Shown here piece by piece: positions 409 through 32,526 of a stretch of 35,157 nucleotides of DNA. This DNA is from Betaproteobacteria bacterium (GTDB lineage Bacteria > Pseudomonadota > Gammaproteobacteria > Burkholderiales > Burkholderiaceae), in assembly GCA_013205155.1 (NCBI GenBank), contig JABMMT010000035.1, positions 1 through 35,157 of the forward strand, read 5' to 3'. The notes below the pieces were generated by a model. It did no database searches and was not told where the DNA came from. It saw only the letters and a list, made by a program, of their open reading frames with translations. The translations under genes and the position numbers were made by a program. Numbering within the stretch: the first letter of the stretch is position 1; each line of letters begins with the position of its first letter.

Positions 409-810
409 TTAAGCATTTCCTTTAGGCCGTATTACTCTTGAAGGGTTCTCTTCATAGGGTGGTGAGTAAATTACTAAGAGCTTTACTGGCTCATCACTAA
501 TGACTGTGAAAACATGCATTGCATCGGCTGGAAAAAAACAGGCGTCACCAGGACCGATTTCACAAACCTCACCATTGACTTCAGCACGAGCACGACCTTC
601 TAGTATGTAGCAGACTTGTTCTATACCAGGATGTGCATGAGGAAGAGCGCCTTTACCCTTTTCAATCGTGCCGTGTAACACTTCTAGCTGCTTTGCGCCG
701 ACTGTTTCAGTGCCAATAATTCTGCGGTTCACTGTAGCTAAATGATTGGCTGGATGGTAGCCCTCTACCTCGCCAGCCTTGACAAAGTAACGTGATTTAG
801 TAGCACTCAT
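409..810 (-). CDS. Cupin domain-containing protein
   Basis: 133 aa ORF with cupin motifs (G...PHAHPGIEQVCYILEGRARAEVNGE...GDACFFPADAMHVF). Confidence 0.85.
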   Translation of the reverse strand: MSATKSRYFVKAGEVEGYHPANHLATVNRRIIGTETVGAKQLEVLHGTIEKGKGALPHAHPGIEQVCYILEGRARAEVNGEVCEIGPGDACFFPADAMHVFTVISDEPVKLLVIYSPPYEENPSRVIRPKGNA

Positions 811-828
811 TATTTTCTCTTCTTTGGT

Positions 829-1992
829 TCAATAGGATTTAGGAAGCCCCAAAACTTTCTCAGCAATAAAACAGAGAATGAGCTGAGGGCTGACAGGAGC
901 TAAGCGAGGAATCCAGGATTCACGAAGATAGCGCTCTACGTGGTACTCCTTGGCATAACCCATGCCGCCATGAGTCATGATGGCATTTTCACAAGCATGA
1001 AAGCAGGCTTCACCAGCAAGGTATTTAGCGGCATTCGCTTCAGCGGCACAGGAATTATTGTTGTCATACAGGCTAGCGGCCTTGAAGACCATCAGGTTCG
1101 CAGCTTCTAGTTCCATCCAGGATTTTGCAAGTGGGTGTTGAATTCCTTGATTTTGACCAATCGGACGATCAAATACGATGCGCTCTTTAGCATAAAGCGC
1201 AGCTCTAGCAAGTGCTACTTGTCCTAAACCAATAGCTTCTGCGGCAATTAAAATTCTTTCGGGGTTGAGGCCATGCAGGATGTAGGAAAAGCCTTTACCC
1301 TCTTCGCCGATGAGATCTTGTGCTGGAACCTTGAGTTGATCAATAAAAACCTCGTTGGAATCAACGCACTTACGACCCATTTTTTCAATTTCTTTTACAT
1401 CAATACAAGAGCGATCTAAGTCGGTATAGAACAATGACAAACCTTCAGTCCCTTTGGAATCCTCGATAGAGGTAGTGCGCGCTAGAAGCAAGATCTTATT
1501 AGCTACTTGTGCGGTTGAAATCCAAATCTTTTGCCCGCTGACTAAATAGTGATCACCCTTTTTTTCAGCCTTAGTAGTGAGCTTAAGGGTATTTAAGCCT
1601 GCGTTAGGTTCTGTGACGCCAAAGCAAGCACGATCTTTACCTGCAATTAAAGGAGGTAGCCAGCGCTTTTTTTGTTCATCGGACCCAAAGACAACCACTG
1701 GGTGCAAACCAAAAATATTCATGTGAACTGCAGAGGCACCCGATAAGCCAGCCCCACTGCCAGAAATCGTGCGCATCATAATCGTGGCTTCAGTGATCCC
1801 AAGACCTGCTCCACCATATTCAGTAGGCATCGCAATACCAAGCCACCCTGCATCCGCTAGGGCTTTATGAAAATCAAAAGGGAAGTCACCAGACTGATCT
1901 TTTTTAAGCCAGTAATCTGCATCAAATGGTTTACAAAGTTTTTCAATAGCATCTTGGATCTGTAACTGCTCTGGTGTGAATTGGAAATTCAT
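829..1992 (-). CDS. Acyl-CoA dehydrogenase
   Basis: 387 aa; ACAD motifs 'CFGVTEPNAGLN', 'GQKIWIS', 'FDRPIGQNQGIQHPLA', 'MTHGGMGYAKEYHVERYLRE'. Confidence 0.93.
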   Translation of the reverse strand: MNFQFTPEQLQIQDAIEKLCKPFDADYWLKKDQSGDFPFDFHKALADAGWLGIAMPTEYGGAGLGITEATIMMRTISGSGAGLSGASAVHMNIFGLHPVVVFGSDEQKKRWLPPLIAGKDRACFGVTEPNAGLNTLKLTTKAEKKGDHYLVSGQKIWISTAQVANKILLLARTTSIEDSKGTEGLSLFYTDLDRSCIDVKEIEKMGRKCVDSNEVFIDQLKVPAQDLIGEEGKGFSYILHGLNPERILIAAEAIGLGQVALARAALYAKERIVFDRPIGQNQGIQHPLAKSWMELEAANLMVFKAASLYDNNNSCAAEANAAKYLAGEACFHACENAIMTHGGMGYAKEYHVERYLRESWIPRLAPVSPQLILCFIAEKVLGLPKSY

Positions 1993-3179
1993 TTTTTACT
2001 TCCTGAGCGTATCAGTGCCTCGATAGCATCTTCTGCATAGCCTAGGCCTCTTAATATTTCAGCTGTATGTTGTCCTAGGCTTGGTGCGGGACTGAGATCT
2101 TCTTTTGCCGGAGTCTCAGACCAAGAAACGGGACTTTTCAGCACTCGAATTTGTCCTTCAGTAGGATGATTTTCGGTATAGATGAAGGATTTACTTTTGA
2201 GATGTTCATCTTGAATGAGGTCATCGATCGAATTCATGGTTTGGTTGGGTAAATCAAATTGATCTAGGAGCTGACGCCATTGGGCAGTCGTTTTGGTCCC
2301 CATAATCGCTTCAACTTCTTGATAAACTTGATCGATATTATTTGCGCGATTGACATGAGTGCAAAAAATTTCTTCCTGTAGGCGCTCTGGTTGACCAATT
2401 GCCTCAAAGAAACTTTTCCAATGCTTGTCGTTATAAATCAGAATAGAGATGTATCCATCCTCAGTAGCATAAGGCTTGCGATAGGGAGATAAGAGGCGAG
2501 CATATCCAGATTTACCAATTGGCGGAATAAAGGACTCGCCACCCAAGTGATCCCCCAAAATAAACTGGGCGATGGATTCAAACATGGGAACCACAATGTG
2601 CTGGCCCTTACCTGTCTTCTCCCTGGCATAGAGGGCTGATGTGACTGCGTAAACAGAGTGCAGCCCTGTGACTCTATCGCCTAAAGTAGTCGGTGCATAA
2701 CGCGGTTCATGAATTCCGTATTGCTGCATTAGCCAGGGCACACCAGCAGCGCCTTGTATTAAATCATCGTAGGCGGGTTTATCAGCATAAGGACCATCTA
2801 GACCAAACCCAGAACAAGAAACGTAAATAAGCTTGTCATTTACTTTTTTTAAATCCTCATAACCAAGACCAAGTCGATCAAGCGCCTGGGGACGGATATT
2901 AGAAATAAATACATCCACTGTTTTTGCAATATCAATCGCTGCCTGTTTAGAAGCAGGATCTTTGAGGTCGAGCACCACACTTTTTTTACCACGATTGGCT
3001 TGTAAAAAAATATGCCCCATTTTTGGATTTCTCATGGGACCGACATCCCGCATATTATCTCCATCAGGAGTTTCAATCTTGATGATTTCAGCACCCATCG
3101 ATGCCAAAATTTGGGTTGCAAAGGGCCCCAGAATCACTGCAGTTAAATCTAATATACGAACGCCAGCTAATGGGCCCAT
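1989..3179 (-). CDS. CoA transferase, class III (CaiB/BaiF family)
   Basis: 'MGPLAGVRILDLTAVILGPFATQILASMGAEIIKIE' and 'LDLKDPASKQA' are typical. The track ORF runs to 3278, but the Met at 3179 fits the family N-terminus and avoids overlap with the next gene. Confidence 0.92.
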   Translation of the reverse strand: MGPLAGVRILDLTAVILGPFATQILASMGAEIIKIETPDGDNMRDVGPMRNPKMGHIFLQANRGKKSVVLDLKDPASKQAAIDIAKTVDVFISNIRPQALDRLGLGYEDLKKVNDKLIYVSCSGFGLDGPYADKPAYDDLIQGAAGVPWLMQQYGIHEPRYAPTTLGDRVTGLHSVYAVTSALYAREKTGKGQHIVVPMFESIAQFILGDHLGGESFIPPIGKSGYARLLSPYRKPYATEDGYISILIYNDKHWKSFFEAIGQPERLQEEIFCTHVNRANNIDQVYQEVEAIMGTKTTAQWRQLLDQFDLPNQTMNSIDDLIQDEHLKSKSFIYTENHPTEGQIRVLKSPVSWSETPAKEDLSPAPSLGQHTAEILRGLGYAEDAIEALIRSGSKK

Positions 3180-3198
3180 CACATTCCTTAATTTCTGA

Positions 3199-4164
3199 TT
3201 AATTGAGTTCGGACTTAATACCAGACTGAGTAATGAGTTTGCCCCAGTAAGCCATTTGTTCGCTAACGTATTGTGCAAACTCCTGAGGATTTTTGGATGG
3301 TAAAACTAAAAATCCGAGCTGTGCTAATTTAGATTGGACCTCAGGATCTTTTATCGCCTCCTGAATAGCCGCATTGACTTTATCAACGATTGGTTTTGGT
3401 AGATTGGCTGGACCAAAAATACCATTCCATGACACGAGGTCAAAGCCCTGAACTGTTTTGGCAATAGGGGGTATGTTAGGTAATTGTGCAAAAGGCCTGT
3501 TGCCGGTTAACCCAATAGGGCGTACCTTACCTGCCTTAATCATCGCCATGCCTGAACCAGTATCTACAACATAGACCTGAATTTGATTACCAATTAAATC
3601 GGTCAGCGCTTGGGGGCTCGACTTATAGGGTATCTGCGTCATACTGATTTTTGTCAGATACATAATTGTTTCAGTGGTAACCAGTGAGGTGCTATTCGGG
3701 GTACCGTAGGATAATTTTCCGGGGTTTGCTTTGGCGTAATCAATCAGTTCTTGAACGCTCTTCACTGGCAAATCATTATTTACGGTCAGCACGAAAGGCA
3801 ATTCACCAACCCGTGTAATTGGTGTGAAATCTTTAATCGGATCGTACTTCAGATTTTGGAATAACCAAGGATTTGCTGAATGTGAGGTATTGGTAGTCAT
3901 CAGCAAGGTGTAACCATCGGGTTTAGCAGATGCAACGAATTGGGCTCCGATTTGCGCGCTGGCGCCAGGTTTGTTATCCACAATGACTGGCTGCCCTAAG
4001 ATACTTCCCATCTTAGTAGCCATGATCCTCGCTATTGCGTCAGTACCACTTCCCGGTGCGAACGGTACCACCAAGGTGATGTTTGAGCTCGGGTAACTTT
4101 GTGCGGCAACCTGTAGCGAAATGGCGCTTAACCCAATTGTCAGTAGTTTAAGAAATTGATTCAT
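3199..4164 (-). CDS. Tripartite tricarboxylate transporter substrate-binding protein (Bug/TctC family)
   Basis: Signal peptide, then 'YPSSNITLVVPFAPGSGTDAIARIMATKM...VIVDNKPGASAQIGAQFVASAKPDGYTLLM', a classic Bug signature. Confidence 0.95.
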   Translation of the reverse strand: MNQFLKLLTIGLSAISLQVAAQSYPSSNITLVVPFAPGSGTDAIARIMATKMGSILGQPVIVDNKPGASAQIGAQFVASAKPDGYTLLMTTNTSHSANPWLFQNLKYDPIKDFTPITRVGELPFVLTVNNDLPVKSVQELIDYAKANPGKLSYGTPNSTSLVTTETIMYLTKISMTQIPYKSSPQALTDLIGNQIQVYVVDTGSGMAMIKAGKVRPIGLTGNRPFAQLPNIPPIAKTVQGFDLVSWNGIFGPANLPKPIVDKVNAAIQEAIKDPEVQSKLAQLGFLVLPSKNPQEFAQYVSEQMAYWGKLITQSGIKSELN

Positions 4165-5090
4165 GTTGATCTCCCGTTCATTTTTGCGGCTATTGCTTTA
4201 CCAACGCGGGATGCATTCGTTTTGCCTGTAGCCCTTGCAATATATTCACCAATTTTGACAGTAGCATCAAAGTCTATTCCAGTTTCGATGCCTAAGCCTT
4301 TAAGCATATACAAAACATCTTCGGTAGCGACATTACCAGTTGCTCCTTTTGCATAAGGGCAACCCCCTAGACCTGCGATAGAGGAATGAAAAATACTGAC
4401 ACCTGCTTGCATTGCAGCATAGATATTAGTAAGGGCTTGCCCGTAAGTATCGTGAAAGTGCCCTGAAAATTGCTGTTTGGGTGCAAAGGTGAAGAGACCC
4501 TCAAATAAAGCCGCTATTTGCCCCGGGGTTCCTACTCCAATCGTGTCTGCAATATCAATTTCATCGCAACCCAATGCCATCATTCTTTTGACAACTTCCG
4601 CAACTTGGGCAGGTTCTACGAATCCCTCGTAGGGGCAGCCAAACGAGCAAGAAATGCTGCCACGAATACGAATGCCATCTTGTTTGGCTGCTTTTGCTAC
4701 CGGTGCAAATCGCTCAATAGATTCAGTAATGCTGCAATTGATATTTTTTTGAGCAAAAGCTTCAGATGCCGCAGAGAAAATAACGATCTCATCTACCTTG
4801 GCCGCTAAGGCAGATTCATAACCTTTCATATTCGGGGTGAGGGCTGAATAAATCGTACCAGGCTTTCTGGTGATGGCAGCCATCACTTCATCGCTACCAG
4901 CCATTTGCGGAATCCATTTAGGGGAAACAAAAGATGCTGCCTCAATATTCGGAAATCCGGCACTTGAAAGTTGATTAATCAGATCTACTTTGACATCAAT
5001 GGGAACAAATTCTTTTTCGTTTTGCAGGCCATCACGCGGACCCACTTCAACGATCTTGACCTGCTTAGGAAGGTTGGAAGATGGGCTCAT
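4161..5090 (-). CDS. Hydroxymethylglutaryl-CoA lyase
   Basis: 'VKIVEVGPRDGLQNE', 'EAASFVSPKWIPQMA', 'GHFHDTYGQAL' and 'SSIAGLGGCPYAKGATGNVATED' (HMGL active-site Cys signature). Confidence 0.95.
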   Translation of the reverse strand: MSPSSNLPKQVKIVEVGPRDGLQNEKEFVPIDVKVDLINQLSSAGFPNIEAASFVSPKWIPQMAGSDEVMAAITRKPGTIYSALTPNMKGYESALAAKVDEIVIFSAASEAFAQKNINCSITESIERFAPVAKAAKQDGIRIRGSISCSFGCPYEGFVEPAQVAEVVKRMMALGCDEIDIADTIGVGTPGQIAALFEGLFTFAPKQQFSGHFHDTYGQALTNIYAAMQAGVSIFHSSIAGLGGCPYAKGATGNVATEDVLYMLKGLGIETGIDFDATVKIGEYIARATGKTNASRVGKAIAAKMNGRST

Positions 5091-5872
5091 TTACTTTTTT
5101 CGAGAAAGGCTTTCATGCGCAGTTGGGCTTCATCACTAGTGCGGATAGTCGCAATACGCTCTACAGTTTCCTCTAGCAACGCCGGAGTGATTGCTTGCTG
5201 CGAAATATCGCGTACCATTTTTTTACAGGCCATTACTGCCAGTGGACCATTACTAATAATGGCTTGGCAAACTTCATCCACTTTAGTATCAAGGGCATCA
5301 GGCTCGACTAATTCATGTACGAATCCCATTTCCTTTGCTTGGGCAGCAGTAAATATTTCAGCAGTTACAAAATATCGACGTGCGGCTTGTTCACCAAGCG
5401 CTCTCATAACGTAGGGTGCAATAGTTGCTGGTAGCAAACCTAATTTTGCTTCAGAGATGCAGAAGCGAGCTTGCGTAGAGGCAATCAAGATATCGCATAC
5501 TGAAGCTAGCCCAACTCCACCCGCATAGGCATCACCCTGTACTTTGGCGATGACGGGTTTTGGACAGGCGTAGATTGTATTGAGCATCAATGCCATTTTG
5601 CGAGAGTCAGCTAGATTCTCTTCTTTGGTGAAGTTAGCCATACTCTTCATCCAATTGAGATCAGCTCCCGCACAAAAAGTCTTGCCATTAGCCTGAAGTA
5701 CAATAACGCGGCAGCAGTCATCAGAGCCTAGTGTAGTAAAGATCTCTTGTAGTTCGCTAATTAAGCCTTCGTTAAAGGCATTGCGTACTTCTGGTCGATT
5801 AAGAGTGACGTGAGTAATACCTTCACCTTGAACAGTAAGGTATTGATATGAGGATGCGTTATAGGTAGCCAA
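5087..5872 (-). CDS. Enoyl-CoA hydratase/isomerase family protein, methylglutaconyl-CoA hydratase-like
   Basis: Crotonase motifs 'LNRPEVRNAFNEGLI', 'CAGADLNWMKSMA', 'GDAYAGGVGLASVCDI', 'SEAKLGLLPATIAPYVMRALG'; the last resembles LiuC-type hydratases. Confidence 0.9.
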   Translation of the reverse strand: MATYNASSYQYLTVQGEGITHVTLNRPEVRNAFNEGLISELQEIFTTLGSDDCCRVIVLQANGKTFCAGADLNWMKSMANFTKEENLADSRKMALMLNTIYACPKPVIAKVQGDAYAGGVGLASVCDILIASTQARFCISEAKLGLLPATIAPYVMRALGEQAARRYFVTAEIFTAAQAKEMGFVHELVEPDALDTKVDEVCQAIISNGPLAVMACKKMVRDISQQAITPALLEETVERIATIRTSDEAQLRMKAFLEKSK

Positions 5873-19281: not shown

Positions 19282-19609
19282 ATGAAAAATAAACTATGTC
19301 ATTATTTGCTAGGAACTGTATTGGGATTATTGGCAATGCAGCTTGCTGCTCAACCTTATCCTAATAAACCAATTTCTCTAGTAGTACCTCAGGCTGCTGG
19401 TGGAACGAATGACATTGTTGCTCGCATGGTAGCTCCTCCATTTGGTGAAGCTATTGGTGCTTCTGTGGTGGTTGAGAATCGGCCTGGTGCTGGCGGAAAT
19501 ATCGGCACACAAGGCGTAGCACGCGCTGCGAAAGATGGCTATACCTTGTTACTGATGGCTAGCCAAGTGGGTGAAAATTGTGAAAGCTTCAGGCGCCCAG
19601 CTTGATTAA
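19282..19609 (+). pseudogene. Bug/TctC receptor gene with internal deletion
   Basis: Normal Bug signal peptide and N-terminus through 'AKDGYTLLLMAS', then directly the C-terminal tail, which is legible only in another frame: AAG TGG GTG AAA ATT GTG AAA GCT TCA GGC GCC CAG CTT GAT TAA = KWVKIVKASGAQLD* (19565-19609). Most of the mature domain is missing. Confidence 0.85.
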
Positions 19610-19629: not shown

Positions 19630-20385
19630 ATGTCTATTTCGCCGCTCAATCCTCCTTTAACTTCTGCAAAAGAACTGGCTCATGGCTTACGTGAGAATGG
19701 CTACGTGGTAGCTTCAGCAGAAACTGTCGCTGAGCTGGCTCATGTCCCTTTGACTAACTTGCAAGGCTTAACTCAATATTGGGAAGGCTTACCCCGTGAT
19801 CCATATCTAAAAGATGGTGGTCGTTATCGTTTTCGACGCCATGCCAGTTATGAGATACAAAAAGGTGGACTTACCTTAGTGCCTCATCGTGCGCATTGGC
19901 AATCGGTTAATTACAACGCCTTACATGGCGGAATTGAGCGTTGGTTTGAGCCGATTCAAAATCAATTAATAGATAGTGCTGCTTGGCAATCACTCTTACT
20001 TGGTTTAGGACAGATGTTAAGTACTCTAAAGCCAGTCAATGCTTGGTTTATAGAGGCGCACCAATTTCGGATTGATACTACGGATGGTATTGGCCGACCA
20101 ACCCCTGAGGGGGCTCATCGAGATGGGGTTGATTTCGTAGCAGTTTTTTTACTAGACCGACTTGGTATCAAAGGTGGAGAAACGAGAATATTTGATGCCC
20201 AAGGATCGGCTGGCTTACGATTTACACTCACTCAGCCTTGGTCCTTATTGCTAATGAATGATGAGAAGATGATTCACGAGTCCACACCCATTCAGCCGAG
20301 CGAGAATTATGGGTATCGCGATACATTGGTCTTAACATATCGCTCAAATGGCTTTCAGGATTCCCCTAAGCGAAGTCAGCAATAA
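19630..20385 (+). CDS. 2OG-Fe dioxygenase family protein
   Basis: 'DPYLKDGGRYRFRRHASYE', 'HQFRIDTTDGIGRPTPEGAHRDGVDFVAVFLLDR', 'ETRIFDAQG', 'MIHESTPI', 'YRDTLVLTYR': HxD...H pattern of the PF10014-type family. Confidence 0.85.
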   Translation: MSISPLNPPLTSAKELAHGLRENGYVVASAETVAELAHVPLTNLQGLTQYWEGLPRDPYLKDGGRYRFRRHASYEIQKGGLTLVPHRAHWQSVNYNALHGGIERWFEPIQNQLIDSAAWQSLLLGLGQMLSTLKPVNAWFIEAHQFRIDTTDGIGRPTPEGAHRDGVDFVAVFLLDRLGIKGGETRIFDAQGSAGLRFTLTQPWSLLLMNDEKMIHESTPIQPSENYGYRDTLVLTYRSNGFQDSPKRSQQ

Positions 20386-20388
20386 GGC

Positions 20389-21372
20389 TTATTCTGGCTC
20401 CATGCCAGCTTCTTTAATAGCCTTGGCCCATTTCGCTGTTTCTAGTTTAATTTTCTGACTTAACGCCTCTGGTGTACCGGGTTGTGATTCAAAACCCATC
20501 GCAGAAAAACGCTCAACTAAGTCTTTAGATTTAGCGGCATCATTTATGGCCTTATTCAGTCTTATTACAGCATCATTAGGCATGCCTGCTGGTCCAAAGG
20601 CGGCAAAAAATGCGATTAACTCATAACCCTTGATACCAAGAGCTTCGTTAACAGTTGGTAATTCAGGGATAGCAGGCGAACGCTTCAATGAAGTCACTGC
20701 AAGCCCACGGATTTTGCCAGCTTGCACCTGTGGCAATGTCACGGCAAAGTCGGCGGTAAACATATTGATTTGGCCGCCAATGAGATCGGTCATGGCATTT
20801 GGACCGCTCTTATAAGAAACACCTGTCATTTTGATGCCAGCAACACTCGAGAGCATTTCTGAAGAAACGCGTTGTGAAGTACTAGCATAGCCAAAGGTAA
20901 TTTTTCCTGGATCTGCTTTTGCAAGAGAAACAAATCCGTTGAGAGATTTTGCTGGCACATCATTGTTGATGGCAACGATTAAAGGAACCGAGCCAAAATA
21001 GCCAATAGGAGCAAAAGCAGTGTCTTGGTTATAGGGCAGATTTTTTACTAAGCTCTTTAATGCGGCGTTAGTACTATTAGTTCCAAATAGCAGGGTATAG
21101 CCATCGGCTGGTGCTTTGGCAACCAAGTCAGCACCAATCATGCCATTGGCTCCTGGGCGGTTTTCAATCACCACTGGCTGCCCTAAAGATTCAGTCATTT
21201 TTGCCGCAAAGGCTCGTCCAATTTGATCTGTTGCGCTACCAGCAGCAAAGGGAACAATCGCTTTAATTGGTTTTGAGGGGTAGTTGTCCGCAAAGACGAG
21301 TGTGCTGCTAATGGCTAACATTAGGCCTGCACAGGACAAAATAAAGTGCTTTAAGAAGGTGTTGGTTTTCAT
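20389..21372 (-). CDS. Tripartite tricarboxylate transporter substrate-binding protein (Bug/TctC family)
   Basis: Signal peptide; 'YPSKPIKAIVPFAAGSATDQIGRAFAAKMTESLGQPVVIENRPGANGMIGADLVAKAPADGYTLLFG'. Confidence 0.95.
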   Translation of the reverse strand: MKTNTFLKHFILSCAGLMLAISSTLVFADNYPSKPIKAIVPFAAGSATDQIGRAFAAKMTESLGQPVVIENRPGANGMIGADLVAKAPADGYTLLFGTNSTNAALKSLVKNLPYNQDTAFAPIGYFGSVPLIVAINNDVPAKSLNGFVSLAKADPGKITFGYASTSQRVSSEMLSSVAGIKMTGVSYKSGPNAMTDLIGGQINMFTADFAVTLPQVQAGKIRGLAVTSLKRSPAIPELPTVNEALGIKGYELIAFFAAFGPAGMPNDAVIRLNKAINDAAKSKDLVERFSAMGFESQPGTPEALSQKIKLETAKWAKAIKEAGMEPE

Positions 21373-25400: not shown

Positions 25401-26534
25401 ATGCCCATTATTGATTCTGTACAGGTTACTTCAGTGGCTGTGCCTTTAGATAAAGTCACTTCATTTTCTACTCGTACTGTATCGGAGCGCCACTATTGCT
25501 TAGTGAAGGTACGTAGTAAAGACGGACATGAAGGAATCGGTTTTTGTTATGTCGGTAGCGCAGGAGGTGATATTGCTAAAGTTGCTGTAGAGCAATTATT
25601 AGCCCCTAAATTGATTGGACAAAATAGCCATCGCAGCGAGGGACTTTGGATGGATATGTATAACGAATCCATCTTGCAGGGACGTGCAGGATCTGTAATG
25701 CGTGGCATTTCTATTTTAGATACGGCGCTATGGGATTTAAACGCCCGTTCAGTGGGATTGCCTTTACATCAGTATTTAGGGTCAGTAGTAGATGATCGTG
25801 TACCAGCATATGCCAGTGGCGGTTACTACCTTGATGGAAAAACGCCTGCTAAGTTAGGCAAGGAGATGGAGTCCTACGTTAAGCTGGGTTTTAAAGCCGT
25901 CAAAATGAAAGTGGGGCGCTTATCTCCATCCGAAGAAGAGTCGCGAGTGAAAGCTGCCCGCAAAGCAATTGGTGAAGATATTTTGTTAACCTTAGATGCG
26001 AATAATGCATGGCGTGATTTACCTACCGCTTTAGAGTATGTGCGGCGCTTTGAGGCCTATAACCCCTATTGGATAGAGGAGCCTTTTTCACCAGATGCGA
26101 TTGACTTACATGCAGCTCTAGCGCGTCAAACTAAGATTAATGTTGCTACCGGTGAGATGGAGGCAGGCCGCTGGCGCTTTAGAGAGTTGATTGATGCAGG
26201 GGGCGCTGCAATTTTGCAATCAGATGCTGCAGTATGCGGTGGTATTACAGAATGGCGCCGGATCTCTGCTTATGCAGACTTAAAGGGTGTAATCGTTTGC
26301 CCACATTGGATGCACGATCTACATGCGCCGCTAGTAGCTGCTACCCCGAATGCTCGTTTTGTAGAATTCTTTTTAGATGATCAGGTATTGAATTTCCGTA
26401 GGTTAATTAATAAACAATTGACCTTTAAGAATGGCGACCTCATCTTACATAAAACACCAGGGCTCGGATTTGAATTTGATGAGGCTGCGGTGAAAAAATA
26501 TGCGGGTAAATCTGCCTGGACTAAAATTGCTTGA
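25401..26534 (+). CDS. Mandelate racemase/muconate lactonizing enzyme family protein
   Basis: Enolase superfamily: KxK 'AVKMKVG', metal ligands 'LTLDANNAW', 'WIEEPF', 'ATGEMEAG', His region 'VCPHWMHDLHAPLVAATPN'; strong RBS AAGGAG. Confidence 0.93.
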   Translation: MPIIDSVQVTSVAVPLDKVTSFSTRTVSERHYCLVKVRSKDGHEGIGFCYVGSAGGDIAKVAVEQLLAPKLIGQNSHRSEGLWMDMYNESILQGRAGSVMRGISILDTALWDLNARSVGLPLHQYLGSVVDDRVPAYASGGYYLDGKTPAKLGKEMESYVKLGFKAVKMKVGRLSPSEEESRVKAARKAIGEDILLTLDANNAWRDLPTALEYVRRFEAYNPYWIEEPFSPDAIDLHAALARQTKINVATGEMEAGRWRFRELIDAGGAAILQSDAAVCGGITEWRRISAYADLKGVIVCPHWMHDLHAPLVAATPNARFVEFFLDDQVLNFRRLINKQLTFKNGDLILHKTPGLGFEFDEAAVKKYAGKSAWTKIA

Positions 26535-26558
26535 TAGAACTTGATGATTATTCATAGT

Positions 26559-28574
26559 TTAGGAAGAAGATCGGGGGTGGAGCTTGAAGTGAGTAATGAT
26601 TTGGGTGATGAGTACCAAAGCAAATCCAATGAAGCCGATCAGATCAGCCTCTGTCGAGGGGTAGGCTAAAGCCACCCCAGATATCACCATAATGACGCGT
26701 TCAAATACTTTGGTTTTTTCAATAAACCATCCCTGTAAGCCGCCAGCCAAACAAATGATGCCAATCACAGCAGTAAATGATATCCAGGCGATCTGCGACC
26801 AATCAGCTTGCTCTAGGGCGCTGGTGGAGCCCATCAGGAGCAAGCTCACGCCCGACTTATCGAGGACAAACATAAATGGCACCAAGATTGCTGGAGCAAC
26901 GTATTTCCACGTTTGTAGAGTAGTTTTATAAGGATTACCTTTGCAAATTGCGGCTGCGGCAAATGGTGACAAGGCTGTTGGAGGCGACACCTCTGAAAGT
27001 ACGGCGTAATAGAAGATAAACATATGCGCGGCAAATGCAGGCACACCTAGGTTAATCAGTGCCGGTGCAGCGATCACAGCGCAAATAATATAAGAAGCAG
27101 TTACCGGTACTGCGAGGCCGACGATCCAGACAATCAATGCTGTAAAGATGGCGGTCAGTAGCAACGAGCCACCCGCATATTGAATCACGATTGAACTAAA
27201 TTTGAGACCAAGTCCGGTAAGTGTTACAGTGCCAACAATCAGACCCGCACCTGCACACGTTGCTGCAATTGCTAATACTCCTGTAGAACCAGTGGAGAGG
27301 GCCTTCACTAAATTGGAGTGATAAAAACCAGAAAGGATAGGTTCTTTTCCTTTAAACCAGGCCCAGGGAATAATTGCAGTATCTTGGCGCAACATACTAG
27401 ACAGTGCAGAAACAACGGTAGCCCAAAAGACTGACATCACTGGCGAGAAGCCCATCATCATGAACACCACGATGGAGATCAAAGAGAAAAAATGAAACCA
27501 ATATTTCTTAGTTAACTGCCAAGCACTTTCTACTGATGGAAAATGAATATTTTTCATGCCGTACTTACGCACGTCGATTTCAACCATGACAAACAAGCCA
27601 AGGTAGAACAAAATCGTGGGGATAGTTGCCATGAGCAACACATCTAAATAGGAGATTTTAAGGAAGTCAGCAATCAGGAAGGCAGCAGCACCCAATACCG
27701 GTGGCGAGATGATGGCACCAAGTCCACCTGCAGCCAAAAGACCGCCTGCAGCATTTTTTTCGTAACCTACCTTTTCAAGCATGGGTGCAGCAACAGAGCC
27801 TACCGTAACGGTAGTTGCAACCCCCGATCCTGATGGGCCACCCATCAAGAATGAGGACAAGACAATCGTTCTGCCTACCCCGGATGATTTGCCGCCCATC
27901 GCAGCAAAAGAGAAGTCGATGAAGAATTTTCCTGCACCAGTAAATTGCAAAAAGGCACCAAAGATGGTGAAAAGAATAATGAGGGTTGCAGAGACGTCGA
28001 CTGCAGTGCCATAGATGCCTTCTAGGGTCATATACATATAACCTACGAGCCGATCTAAGTCGTAACCTTTGTGAGTCCATGGGGCAGGAAGGTAATTGCC
28101 AAAGAAGGCATATAGCAAGAAAAGTACCGTAACGGCAACGAGTACCATGCCATTAGTTCTCCTCACACCCTCGAGAATGAGTAGGATGAGAGCAATACCC
28201 ACCATCACATCAGTAGAATTTGGGGCAGTATTTCTGTCCATCAGGTCATCGCCGCCGGCCAGAATGTAATAGGCGATGGCAACTGAGCCTATGGCAAATA
28301 AAACATCCCAAAACATTAATTTGTTTTTAAAACGAGCAGCAACCGGAAAACTAAGGAACACTAAAAACAAGACTAGCGCAACGTGAATAACTCTGAGCTG
28401 ATGGGTTGGAACGATCGAGTAGGCTGCATACAAATGAAACAATGACATGCCCACTGCCACCAGTGTGATGAATATAGCGAGTAGGCCTTTGTAGTTATTA
28501 GAGTCACCCTCTTCTTGCTTAATGAAGGCGTCTAACTTTTCTTGGGTTTCGTTGTCAATCACATTTTGATTCAT
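26559..28574 (-). CDS. TRAP transporter permease (fused 4TM/12TM subunits)
   Basis: 671 aa; 'GGKSSGVGRTIVLSSFLMGGPSGSGVATTVTVGSVAAPMLEKVGYEKNAAGGLLAAGGLGAIISPPVLGAAAFLIADFL'. Confidence 0.95.
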   Translation of the reverse strand: MNQNVIDNETQEKLDAFIKQEEGDSNNYKGLLAIFITLVAVGMSLFHLYAAYSIVPTHQLRVIHVALVLFLVFLSFPVAARFKNKLMFWDVLFAIGSVAIAYYILAGGDDLMDRNTAPNSTDVMVGIALILLILEGVRRTNGMVLVAVTVLFLLYAFFGNYLPAPWTHKGYDLDRLVGYMYMTLEGIYGTAVDVSATLIILFTIFGAFLQFTGAGKFFIDFSFAAMGGKSSGVGRTIVLSSFLMGGPSGSGVATTVTVGSVAAPMLEKVGYEKNAAGGLLAAGGLGAIISPPVLGAAAFLIADFLKISYLDVLLMATIPTILFYLGLFVMVEIDVRKYGMKNIHFPSVESAWQLTKKYWFHFFSLISIVVFMMMGFSPVMSVFWATVVSALSSMLRQDTAIIPWAWFKGKEPILSGFYHSNLVKALSTGSTGVLAIAATCAGAGLIVGTVTLTGLGLKFSSIVIQYAGGSLLLTAIFTALIVWIVGLAVPVTASYIICAVIAAPALINLGVPAFAAHMFIFYYAVLSEVSPPTALSPFAAAAICKGNPYKTTLQTWKYVAPAILVPFMFVLDKSGVSLLLMGSTSALEQADWSQIAWISFTAVIGIICLAGGLQGWFIEKTKVFERVIMVISGVALAYPSTEADLIGFIGFALVLITQIITHFKLHPRSSS

Positions 28575-28621
28575 GGCTGAACCTATCTTTATTTATATTT
28601 ATGTACCGCATTAAAGCAGAA

Positions 28622-28642
28622 GGGGTGAGATTAACTCACCCC
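28622..28642 (-). promoter_or_regulatory. Stem-loop between TAXI receptor and TRAP permease genes
   Basis: GGGGTGAG-ATTAA-CTCACCCC, a perfect 8-bp inverted repeat 8 bases downstream of the receptor stop codon. Confidence 0.7.
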
Positions 28643-28650
28643 AATATGGC

Positions 28651-29601
28651 TTAGTTTACCTTGACACCTTTTTCTTTAAAGTACTTTAAAGCACCTGGAT
28701 GATAGGCAATCGGTGTTGCATTCGATTTTTGGTTCTCTAATTTGATATTTCTGTACTCAGCATGTGAGCGGACAAGTTCAAGCTGATTATCAAAAATGGC
28801 TTTAACAATTTTGTAAGCCTCTGCATCAGACATAGTGGAGTTGACAACTAAAAGATTGGCAACTGCTGCAACTTTATTATCTTTTTCCATGCCGCTATAA
28901 GTCTGCTTTGTAATCTCGGATGGGAAATAAAGATTGCCATATTTTTTATTCATAGCGGGGACTTCAGCAGAAGTGTCTACCATCACGATTTTCATGCTCG
29001 GGCTGTTTGCCAAATCAGTAACAGCTGCAGTTGGTAGTCCACCTACCCAAAAGAAGGCGTCAATCTTACGGTCTTTTACAGCATTGACAGATTCTGCAAC
29101 GCTCAAACGCTCACGCTTGACATCTTTGTCTTTATCAAGCCCTGCAGCCTCTAACAAGCGAAAAGCCATGACTTCAGTGGCACTTCCTGGTGCGCCTGTG
29201 CTTACGCGCTTACCTTTAAGATCTTTCATGGTCTTAATGCCAGTGGATTCCACGGTAGCAACGTGCATGAGGTTTGGATACAGTATGAGTAAATTGCGCA
29301 AATCTACGGGCTTGTCTTTAAATTTATCCTCACCAACTAACGCGTCTTTGGCAGCATCAGCCATTGAGAAAGCAACGTAAGGTTTGCCAGTACCAACCAG
29401 TTTTAAGTTATCAACTGAGCCACCTGTCACTTCAGCAGTCGCTGACATTCCTGGGACATGCTTGGATAAGACAGAGGCTAGGCCCCCACCCATTGGGTAG
29501 TAGACACCCCCTGTACCACCGGTAGCAATAGAGATATTTTGTGCTTGCGCATTAGCCCATAAAAAGCTGAGCGATAGTACGACGATTTTTAATAACTTCA
29601 T
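28651..29601 (-). CDS. TAXI family TRAP transporter solute-binding subunit
   Basis: 'ISIATGGTGGVYYPMGGGLASVLSKHVPGMSATAEVTGGSVDNLKLV', 'LKGKRVSTGAPGSATEVMAFRLLEAAGL'. Confidence 0.96.
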   Translation of the reverse strand: MKLLKIVVLSLSFLWANAQAQNISIATGGTGGVYYPMGGGLASVLSKHVPGMSATAEVTGGSVDNLKLVGTGKPYVAFSMADAAKDALVGEDKFKDKPVDLRNLLILYPNLMHVATVESTGIKTMKDLKGKRVSTGAPGSATEVMAFRLLEAAGLDKDKDVKRERLSVAESVNAVKDRKIDAFFWVGGLPTAAVTDLANSPSMKIVMVDTSAEVPAMNKKYGNLYFPSEITKQTYSGMEKDNKVAAVANLLVVNSTMSDAEAYKIVKAIFDNQLELVRSHAEYRNIKLENQKSNATPIAYHPGALKYFKEKGVKVN

Positions 29602-29627
29602 GGTTGTCTCCTTTGGATATTTTTAAA

Positions 29628-30554
29628 TTAAAGACCAGGCATTGAAAAATGAGCTTTTTGTAGTTCACTTAATAATTTTGCTTGTTGATCAGCAGTTAAT
29701 TGCATCAGTGGCGGAAGAACTCTGAGCCAATCAGAATCTTTACTGAAATGGGCAACAGCAGTTTTCATGCCAGCAATCATTTGGTATTGCGCAAAGATCG
29801 AGCGGAGACTATCTAAATCTGCTTGACGTTGATCGGCATTCGATTCTCTCCAGTGCGCTGCTAAATCAGCGATCGCCTTTGGATTAACGTTTGCAGTAGC
29901 AGAAATGCATCCAACCCCACCAGCTCGCAGGGTACGCATTAAGAAAACTTCACTACCAGCATAAACACGGAAACCAGATGGAGCTAGCAACTTAATAACG
30001 GATTCTGTATAAGCCCAGTCACCAGAACTATCCTTCATGCCAACCACAGTTTTTGGATATTCTTTGGCTAGGCGCTCAAGCAATGCCAAACTTTTATTAA
30101 TCTTGGTAACGGGCGGAATGTTGTAGATATAAATCTTCAAGGCTGAGCTACCTACCTTTTGAATCACCTCCGAAAAATATGCAAAGAGTCCATCATCAGT
30201 AACGTCTTTGTAATAGAAGGGCGGAAGCATGAGAACGCCAGCACATTTGTGTGCAACCGCATGTTTAGTCATGGTCACGGTTGCATCAATCGAGGTAGCC
30301 CCGGTACCCGGCATCATGTGCTCGGGATTGAGTCCACCTTCGATGAGCGCTGTTAGCACACTCATTTTTTGTGGATCAGACATAGAGTTTGCTTCTGAGT
30401 TTGTGCCAAAGATTGCTTGACCAACACCATTAGCCCCTAACCATTTGCATTGCTTCAATAATTTTTGTGCATCAGGGCTACCATCTGCTTTGAACGGTGT
30501 TAATACTGGCGATAGCACTGCAGGCAATGTTGAAGGGTGTAAGGAAATAGTCAT
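29628..30554 (-). CDS. Dihydrodipicolinate synthase family protein (class I aldolase superfamily)
   Basis: 'PVLTPFKADGSPD', 'YIYNIPPVTKI', 'VVGMKDSSGDWAY' (Schiff-base Lys context), 'VYAGSEVF'. Confidence 0.93.
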   Translation of the reverse strand: MTISLHPSTLPAVLSPVLTPFKADGSPDAQKLLKQCKWLGANGVGQAIFGTNSEANSMSDPQKMSVLTALIEGGLNPEHMMPGTGATSIDATVTMTKHAVAHKCAGVLMLPPFYYKDVTDDGLFAYFSEVIQKVGSSALKIYIYNIPPVTKINKSLALLERLAKEYPKTVVGMKDSSGDWAYTESVIKLLAPSGFRVYAGSEVFLMRTLRAGGVGCISATANVNPKAIADLAAHWRESNADQRQADLDSLRSIFAQYQMIAGMKTAVAHFSKDSDWLRVLPPLMQLTADQQAKLLSELQKAHFSMPGL

Positions 30555-30565
30555 TCTTGCTCCGA

Positions 30566-31495
30566 TTAATTTTTTACTTCTGTCAGAAGTGGCTGCTGGT
30601 TAAAAAAGGCTTCTAAATTATCTACTGCTAAATGAATCATTGCTATCCGTGTTTCTGCGGTAGCGCTGCCGATATGAGGCGTTAAAAGTACATTATCAAG
30701 ATTTAAGAAAGCAATATTGGGATTAGGTTCATTTTCGAAGACATCCAAGGCTGCGCCAGCAATCTTTTTATGCTGCAGTGCATATAAAAGAGCGGGTTCA
30801 TCAATTACGCTGCCACGAGCAATATTGATTAAGTAAGCCTTGGGACCAAGAGCTTCAAGCACCTTAGCATTAATCATTTTATCGGTATCGGGGGTGGCTG
30901 GACAGGTCAAAAAAAGCACATCACATGCATCTGCTAAAGATTGGATGTCTTTAATATAGGTGTATGGCAAGTCCTTAGGAGAGGGTCCGCTATAACAAAT
31001 CTCCACCTTAAAGGGCAAGAGGCGTGTAGCTAGCCCTTGCCCAATCCGACCCATACCAGCGATGCCTACTCGTTTACCCGATAAGTTAGTGGTAATCCTA
31101 AAGGGGCCCTTAGACCAAGCGGTACTTTTGACAAGCTCTTGGGCGTCAGGCAAGCGCCGTATGAGTCCGAGCATTATCCCCATCGCTAACTCACAAACAG
31201 CATCATTGAGAACCCCTGGGGTGTTGCTGATTTTGATTCCCCGCTCTTTAAGGTAAGCCAGCGGAAGATTGTCATAACCAACACCACAGGTTGATACCAT
31301 TCTGATGCTGGGGATTTGCCTAACTAAGATTTCAGGCAGAGTAATGTTAGAGCGAACTAAGATGGCCTCAAAATGACCTTCAGGTGCTGGGGCTCTTGGA
31401 TCAGGATGGAGTATTGGAGTAAAACGTCGATTAATTTCTGCCTGCATCATTTCAGGAAAATGGCCGACCTCTAACACCGAATTGACGGGAATCAT
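30566..31495 (-). CDS. 2-hydroxyacid dehydrogenase (D-isomer specific family)
   Basis: 'VGIAGMGRIGQGLATRLLPF', 'LINIARGSVIDEPALLYALQHKKIAGAALDVFENEP', 'LTPHIGSATAETR'. Confidence 0.95.
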   Translation of the reverse strand: MIPVNSVLEVGHFPEMMQAEINRRFTPILHPDPRAPAPEGHFEAILVRSNITLPEILVRQIPSIRMVSTCGVGYDNLPLAYLKERGIKISNTPGVLNDAVCELAMGIMLGLIRRLPDAQELVKSTAWSKGPFRITTNLSGKRVGIAGMGRIGQGLATRLLPFKVEICYSGPSPKDLPYTYIKDIQSLADACDVLFLTCPATPDTDKMINAKVLEALGPKAYLINIARGSVIDEPALLYALQHKKIAGAALDVFENEPNPNIAFLNLDNVLLTPHIGSATAETRIAMIHLAVDNLEAFFNQQPLLTEVKN

Positions 31496-31581: not shown

Positions 31582-32526
31582 ATGTTGTTTACCCCAGCCG
31601 AAACTAAAGTAGTGATTGTTGGAGGGGGCACTATGGGCGCAGACGTAGCTGCTGTCTGCGCGCGCGGTGGTTGTGCTGTGCAGGTGGTTGAGCCTACCAC
31701 TGAACGCAGAGCCCTTTTGCCAGATTATTTTGCAAATACCCTAGCTGAGTTGGGTTACGAAAATCGTGTTCATTTACTCAGCACTGCTGGGTCTTTAGAG
31801 GAAGTCGATTGGTCGGATGTGGATTTGGTGATTGAGTGCGTGCCTGAGCGCTTAGATATCAAACAAGAATTATTTGCCAAGCTTGAGAAGTACGCAAAGC
31901 CAGAAGCCGTATTAGCTAGTAATAGCACTAGCTTTCCCATTAGCCAAATTGCAAGCGGTTTGAAAACAGCGGCGCGAATGATTGGCCTACATTTTTTTAT
32001 GCCAGCCCATTTGATTCCTTGTGTAGAAGTAGTTTATGGCGAGAAAACTTCACCCATGGTTGCCGACAGTCTTACTAGATTGATGACTGCTTGTGGCATG
32101 GTTCCAGTGACCGTTAAAAAAGATTTACCCGGATTCTTGGCTAATCGTTTACAGCATGCACTATCACGTGAAGCATTTTCGATGGTAGATCAAGGTATAT
32201 GTACTCCTGAAGATATTGACAAGGCAGTCCGCTTTGGATTTGGCTTTCGCTATATCGCAGCTGGTCCAGCAATGCAGCGTGATCATGCAGGACTTGAAAT
32301 CCATGCCGCTGGAGGAGCGACGATTTATCCTTCCTTAAATAACTCTTCTACGATTGCAAAGTGCTTAAGTGAGCGCGTGGAGAGCGGGAAGTTTGGTATG
32401 AAAACTGGGGAAGGATTTTTCTCTTGGACTGCAGAAACGATTCAAGCAGAGCGTAAGCGTTATCAGAAAGCATTACGTGAGGGCTTAAAAATTATTCAGA
32501 AAGACCTACCGGAAATTAAACAATGA
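31582..32526 (+). CDS. 3-hydroxyacyl-CoA dehydrogenase-family NAD-dependent oxidoreductase (single-domain, possibly a 3-hydroxyacid/L-gulonate/carnitine dehydrogenase-type enzyme)
   Basis: 'VVIVGGGTMGADVAAVCARGGCAVQVVEP', 'ASNSTSFPISQIASG', 'HFFMPAHLIPCVEVV', 'LPGFLANRLQHALSREAFSMVDQGICTPEDIDKAV'. Confidence 0.9.
   Translation: MLFTPAETKVVIVGGGTMGADVAAVCARGGCAVQVVEPTTERRALLPDYFANTLAELGYENRVHLLSTAGSLEEVDWSDVDLVIECVPERLDIKQELFAKLEKYAKPEAVLASNSTSFPISQIASGLKTAARMIGLHFFMPAHLIPCVEVVYGEKTSPMVADSLTRLMTACGMVPVTVKKDLPGFLANRLQHALSREAFSMVDQGICTPEDIDKAVRFGFGFRYIAAGPAMQRDHAGLEIHAAGGATIYPSLNNSSTIAKCLSERVESGKFGMKTGEGFFSWTAETIQAERKRYQKALREGLKIIQKDLPEIKQ

Follow-up and report, generated by a model that had tools for sequence, protein, structure and literature searches.

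A probable sugar-acid catabolic locus with a TAXI-TRAP transporter in Polynucleobacter or a very near relative

The DNA studied here is a window of 35,157 nt (the whole stretch analysed) from Betaproteobacteria bacterium GCA_013205155.1 (contig JABMMT010000035.1; assembly 2.13 Mb, 358 contigs), in which a gene for an enolase-superfamily enzyme of the mandelate racemase (MR) type converges on a minus-strand operon encoding a 2-hydroxyacid dehydrogenase, a DHDPS-family enzyme, a TAXI receptor and a fused TRAP permease. We propose that this locus probably imports a polyhydroxylated acid via TAXI-TRAP and cleaves it, yielding pyruvate together with one other small fragment. A role in sugar-acid catabolism, suggested earlier by a sequence-only reading, is well supported by the conserved linkage of the enzymes in several genera and by the structures closest to the modelled dehydratase, while import of the sugar acid by the TAXI receptor is plausible and moderately supported by linkage and pocket. 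The same reading had called the locus probably new, which is fair for the enzyme subfamilies and for their pairing with TAXI but not for the pathway type, since a dehydratase followed by a pyruvate aldolase is already known.

Gene content and predicted enzymes

Open reading frames were assigned to families with Pfam and NCBIfam profiles, using curated cut-offs where available, and genes in GC-rich comparison loci were called via codon-usage scoring. All five genes named in the sequence-only reading gave strong family matches, with catalytic residues intact. The MR protein (25401–26534, plus strand) matches MR_MLE_C at 202.6 bits, and its catalytic set (K168/K170, D199, E226, E252, the D275-H302 dyad and E322) is invariant across an alignment of 17 diverse orthologues; it has the KxK motif, three carboxylate metal ligands and His-Asp dyad of the mandelate racemase subgroup. 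The best PDB fold matches of its model (pLDDT 92.3) are L-talarate/galactarate dehydratases (2pp0, 3cb3; E 1.6e-33, TM about 0.89), which resemble it in fold, KxK, metal ligands and aldarate context, but are only 30–31% identical to it and have other gene neighbours. Further high matches include a Streptomyces protein annotated as a racemase, galactarolactone and anhydrogalactonate cycloisomerases (4hpn, 5xd7, 5olc) and a Bordetella bronchiseptica enzyme solved with m-xylarate and L-lyxarate (3ozm/3op2; 30–31% identity), for which we know of no published function. The cycloisomerases share subgroup and fold with the window protein, but differ in sequence (28–30% identity) and, for 4hpn, which we take to be part of the oxidative uronate route, in that a uronate dehydrogenase homologue was not found in the Polynucleobacter genomes searched (see below). 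As the solved structures among the matches listed reach only about 31% identity, we take the MR subfamily to be uncharacterised, and a literature search found no laboratory work on it. Its family, fold and catalytic residues together predict that the protein is a sugar-acid dehydratase, acting on an aldarate or aldonate, in which the Lys/His pair would remove the proton adjacent to the carboxylate and water would be eliminated to give a 2-keto-3-deoxy acid.

The DHDPS-family protein (29628–30554, minus strand; Pfam DHDPS, 124.2 bits) has the catalytic residues of a class I aldolase, namely K174 for the Schiff base, Y144 and Y115, and is predicted on these residues and on known chemistry (PMC9795676) to be a 2-keto-3-deoxy-acid aldolase, which would bind the dehydratase product through K174 and release pyruvate and a second short fragment. 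Enzymes of the L-2-keto-3-deoxyarabonate dehydratase type have Gln in place of the catalytic Tyr (PMC9795676), whereas the window enzyme retains Tyr144 and by this residue is not of that type. It missed the equivalog cut-offs for DapA (TIGR00674, 116.6 against 206.15 bits) and for the 5-dehydro-4-deoxyglucarate dehydratase KdgD (TIGR03249, 49.5 against 373.95 bits), and lacks the substrate-recognising GXXG motif, having instead GTNS, common to almost all of its orthologues (GTTS in L145). Its best PDB match by some way is the Agrobacterium DHDPS-family protein 3b4u (149.6 bits, the next being 84), which differs in having GTTG at this site. To our knowledge no function has been assigned to 3b4u.

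The D-2-hydroxyacid dehydrogenase (30566–31495, minus strand; 2-Hacid_dh_C, 176.2 bits) has catalytic residues R227, E254 or E256, and H274, and is close to the glyoxylate/hydroxypyruvate reductases, although it falls under the equivalog cut-offs for GhrB (172.2 against 492) and GhrA (78.7 against 403). Speculatively, it would reduce a 2-oxo acid of the pathway, which for a five-carbon diacid substrate would be glyoxylate and for a six-carbon diacid would be a tartronate semialdehyde isomer. Divergent from the operon, with its start 86 bases from that of the dehydrogenase, lies a gene for a 3-hydroxyacyl-CoA dehydrogenase (HCDH)-family NAD-binding dehydrogenase (31582–32526, plus strand), left out of the sequence-only reading. 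By profiles and neighbourhood it is a conserved part of the locus, kept beside the operon in the genus and found beside DHDPS and TAXI genes in L199, L212 and L213; its product probably supplies or clears a related hydroxyacid. Many congeners carry a second HCDH-family paralogue (41–47% identical to that of the window) between the MR gene and an M23 peptidase gene (L033, L034, L040–L042, L045, L046, L049–L051, L080, L085), which is missing from this place in the window.

Both transporter components exceed their curated cut-offs, the receptor (28651–29601, minus strand) scoring 296.6 bits with TRAP_TAXI (TIGR02122; cut-off 84.35) and the permease, a QM fusion (26559–28574, minus strand), 528.6 bits with TRAP_fused (TIGR02123; cut-off 320.65). 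Linkage and pocket suggest that the receptor would capture periplasmic acid, which the permease would then import. Coordinates place 11 bases between the dehydrogenase and DHDPS genes, 26 between DHDPS and TAXI and 76 between TAXI and permease, while the permease and MR genes lie tail to tail, 24 bases apart, confirming the convergent arrangement described earlier.

Conserved linkage of the locus

Because MR orthologues are 80–94% identical in Polynucleobacter loci and up to 97% in several betaproteobacterial metagenome-assembled genomes, we assign the window genome, on this similarity, to Polynucleobacter or a very near relative. The MR gene is present in 52 of 61 sampled Polynucleobacter genomes, and all 20 of the most similar congeneric loci (L003–L022) have the order HCDH / dehydrogenase-DHDPS-TAXI-TRAP intact, with MR next after the permease wherever the sequence spanned both ends. 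Conserved linkage, which the sequence-only reading had set as its own test, is thus present within the genus and, for the core enzymes, in several others. Two further loci (L025, L026) contain the operon at 60–74% identity, and in another two (L023, L024) DHDPS alone is left at this place. In the Polynucleobacter genomes G188 and G250 a gene for an IlvD/EDD dehydratase related to L-arabinonate dehydratase lies between the dehydrogenase and HCDH genes. A DHDPS gene in G094 (C1:220942-221783) and an MR gene in G263 (C1:1114167-1115292) are each split over two frames, and are possibly decaying or the result of assembly errors. A literature search found no paper on this gene set in Polynucleobacter or on the enzyme combination.

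Searching the genome collection with the MR alignment yielded a best 80 loci, including representatives of Paraburkholderia, Caballeronia, Trinickia, Noviherbaspirillum, Polaromonas, Halomonas, Salinicola, Marinobacter, Aurantimonas and Palleronia, which together with loci from earlier scans made 96 with distinct MR proteins. Outside Polynucleobacter, where MR orthologues are 60–76% identical, their genes have members of the same DHDPS family as neighbours, together with genes for a 2-hydroxyacid dehydrogenase and for a sugar-acid dehydratase of the IlvD/EDD family. Counted within 8 kb of MR (MR orthologues of at least 60% and DHDPS of at least 40% identity), the neighbours in the 96 loci were DHDPS (48), IlvD/EDD (43), 2-hydroxyacid dehydrogenase (36), FCD-type GntR (34), TctA (21), TAXI (20), SMP-30 lactonase (17), GarD-like (16), uronate-dehydrogenase-like (16), FMN_dh (16) and Ldh2 (12), with MFS genes of the galactonate transporter family also among them. 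DHDPS and IlvD/EDD occurred together in 36 loci (Fisher p 2.8e-9 if each locus is treated as independent). Where a 5–9 Mb genome of the family has such a DHDPS gene (E 1e-40 or better), it is mostly the only one, so adjacency would be expected by chance in roughly 0.3% of genomes. An RraA-like aldolase gene was found in eight loci, all without DHDPS (DHDPS 0/8 versus 48/88, p 0.006), and this mutual exclusion is compatible with a cleavage that releases pyruvate.

The locus thus has an enzyme core, served by a transporter that varies among TAXI-TRAP, TctABC and MFS systems: in Paraburkholderia, P. graminis and P. fungorum included, the MR, DHDPS, dehydrogenase and IlvD genes cluster with galactonate-type MFS transporters and no TAXI, and elsewhere TctABC or MFS systems take the transporter's place beside MR. 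Of the 82 MR loci outside Polynucleobacter, 9 include related TAXI/TRAP genes. On the MR tree the association recurs in several separate clades, and TAXI and TctA were never found at the same MR locus (TctA in 0/20 loci with TAXI versus 21/76 without). At L073 and L146 an MR orthologue is divergent from genes for a DUF1537 (OtnK-type) kinase and a class II aldolase, followed by TAXI-TRAP, a possible link of the window's transporter subfamily to four-carbon sugar acids.

Receptor pocket, substrate and alternatives

In the glutamate receptor VcGluP the amino group of the ligand is held by Gln93 and Glu125, and affinity is dominated by Gln93 and Tyr45 (PMC11574862). The window receptor belongs to the same family as VcGluP (8s4j) and TtGluBP (1us4/1us5) and retains the key tyrosine (Tyr34 for Y45) and serine, but has M80 for Q93, N110 for E125, W185 for Y200 and V186 for M201. 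Replacement of the amino-group-binding residues speaks against an amino acid ligand, glutamate included, while being neutral as to which acid is bound. A TAXI transporter for o-phthalate in Azoarcus, as cited in PMC11574862, takes a non-amino-acid carboxylate, although an aromatic one. Asn occupies the E125 position in every MR-linked TAXI receptor bar the distant L069; however, most receptors of 52–71% identity without MR nearby share the Met/Asn/Trp pocket, which is therefore not a hallmark of MR linkage and, taken alone, is no indication of sugar acids. Laboratory work giving the TAXI-TRAP class a sugar-acid role was not found in a literature search.

These same-pocket receptors raise the alternative that the transporter serves another compound, such as a C4-C5 dicarboxylate (fumarate, hydroxyglutarate, glutarate), and sits beside sugar-acid enzymes in some lineages only. 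In L205–L207 (Gln replaces Met in two of the three) the receptor lies beside fumarase, SDH-flavoprotein and UxaA-type genes (the two-subunit dehydratase of L205 scores as a fumarate hydratase, and its identification as a tartrate dehydratase was rejected); in L070, L199 and L213 it lies beside L-2-hydroxyglutarate-oxidase-like, CoA-transferase and glutaryl-CoA-dehydrogenase-like genes, and other such receptors have no recognised metabolic partner. We nevertheless regard this alternative as rather unlikely, given the constant gene order that TAXI-TRAP keeps with MR, DHDPS and dehydrogenase across Polynucleobacter, the presence of DHDPS, HCDH and IlvD beside TAXI in L199 and L213 themselves, the tie between TAXI and MR in several separate clades, and the mutual exclusion of TAXI and TctA. 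It is highly improbable that the MR protein acts as a muconate cycloisomerase, as a dipeptide epimerase or as a racemase of N-acyl amino acids, activities for which superfamily membership is the sole argument: the protein scores 115 against a cut-off of 335 for mucon_cyclo and 22.6 against 343 for L-Ala-D/L-Glu epimerase, its KxK and His-Asp dyad are the MR pattern, and its neighbours in relatives are sugar-acid genes.

For a sugar-acid locus, our leading guess at the substrate is a five- or six-carbon aldarate or aldonate, cleaved to pyruvate and a short fragment. A hexarate, hexonate or pentonate is a realistic possibility: the second product would be tartronate semialdehyde, glyceraldehyde or glycolaldehyde, and the dehydrogenase would make or use a 2-keto sugar acid, for example in a change of configuration at C2 with an L-specific partner such as the Ldh2 or FMN dehydrogenase seen near MR in relatives. 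Consistent with this are talarate/galactarate dehydratase as the nearest characterised enzyme, the uronate-dehydrogenase-like, GarD-like, lactonase and galactonate-type MFS genes of relatives, the resemblance of the IlvD/EDD partner to L-arabinonate dehydratase, and a MOFRL glycerate kinase in 8/8 congeners (PF02595 glycerate kinase was absent from the congeners examined). However, tartronate semialdehyde reductase exceeds its curated cut-off in only 5/8, with weaker matches in the other three, and the uronate dehydrogenase homologue is again missing. A pentarate (xylarate, lyxarate or arabinarate) seems unlikely; MR would then form 4-hydroxy-2-oxoglutarate, the DHDPS enzyme would yield pyruvate and glyoxylate, the dehydrogenase would reduce glyoxylate and malate synthase G would use the remainder. 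The ligands of the Bordetella relative, the weakly scoring human (mitochondrial) 4-hydroxy-2-oxoglutarate aldolase in the same family as the DHDPS enzyme, the likeness of the dehydrogenase to glyoxylate/hydroxypyruvate reductases, malate synthase G in 8/8 congeners and the RraA-like aldolases, known from 4-hydroxy-2-oxo diacids, that replace DHDPS in eight loci are all in keeping with a pentarate, but none is specific to it, and IlvD/EDD sugar-acid dehydratases of known function act mainly on aldonates. Since all eight congeners have both malate synthase G and the MOFRL kinase, the five- and six-carbon routes are not separated by them, and the kinase leaves hexarate and aldonate routes compatible. 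Taken with the growth data below, this gene content fits a sugar acid of either length, aldarate or aldonate.

Several observations weigh against import and cleavage of a sugar acid by this locus. The MR protein reaches no curated acid-sugar equivalog cut-off (234.7 against 500 bits for L-talarate/galactarate dehydratase, TalGalacDh, NF047820). The loci counted above are related, and a tree-aware test of the DHDPS/IlvD association gave a median p of 0.25, with too few independent pairs. TAXI, MR and DHDPS were seen in one place only in Polynucleobacter, DHDPS being present in none of the nine TAXI-linked MR loci outside it; the earlier claim that TAXI imports an acid sugar thus stands as plausible, and is weakened by this and by the same-pocket receptors that lie beside fumarase-type, SDH-flavoprotein or unrelated genes. 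HCDH paralogues also accompany enoyl-CoA hydratase and CoA-transferase genes (L081, L082). A tested Polynucleobacter strain showed poor or no growth on carbohydrates (PMC3308952), and neither a uronate dehydrogenase homologue nor UxaC was detected in 12 Polynucleobacter genomes, the former in a search without a positive control. At genus level there is support in the assimilation of D-galacturonic acid by Polynucleobacter asymbioticus (PMC5018217), although the two negative searches leave its route of entry hard to account for; the species grows mainly on small carboxylic acids and its genome has very few carbohydrate transporters (PMC3308952).

The full proposition, that most Polynucleobacter have a dedicated TAXI-TRAP system for an aldarate or related sugar acid, with a Met/Asn/Trp non-amino-acid pocket, an uncharacterised MR enzyme and a GTNS-type DHDPS enzyme, is more tentative than import and cleavage of a polyhydroxylated acid, and falls a little short of evenly balanced. 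If true, the poorly characterised TAXI-TRAP class would gain a sugar-acid ligand, a function would be named for an enolase-superfamily subfamily spread over beta-, gamma- and alphaproteobacteria, and oxidised, acid-type breakdown products would account for part of the diet of a freshwater genus that is very abundant and nearly devoid of carbohydrate transporters.

Other features of the window and its relatives

Within the 76 bases that separate the receptor gene from the permease gene, a consensus scan found a terminator-like hairpin (28622–28642, minus strand; GGGGTGAG..CTCACCCC; 8 pairs, 6 of them GC) that could act as an attenuator, lowering permease expression relative to the receptor, in a scan whose count of terminator-like sites is close to the shuffled expectation. 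A recurrent cluster of L-2-hydroxyglutarate-oxidase-like and acyl-CoA dehydrogenase genes converges on the window's TAXI-TRAP subfamily in L070, L071, L199, L212 and L213, most of which add CoA-transferase, SDR, aldo/keto reductase and 2-hydroxyacid dehydrogenase genes. Elsewhere in the window, an apparently truncated start of a TctC-type receptor (19282–19605, plus strand; 107 aa) adjoins a 2OG-Fe dioxygenase gene (19630–20385, PF10014) and a full TctC gene (20389–21372). A single minus-strand run at 409–5872, comprising cupin, acyl-CoA dehydrogenase, CoA-transferase, TctC receptor, HMG-CoA-lyase-like and enoyl-CoA-hydratase-like reading frames, resembles, by eye from the translations, an operon for acyl-CoA catabolism that has a TTT receptor of its own.

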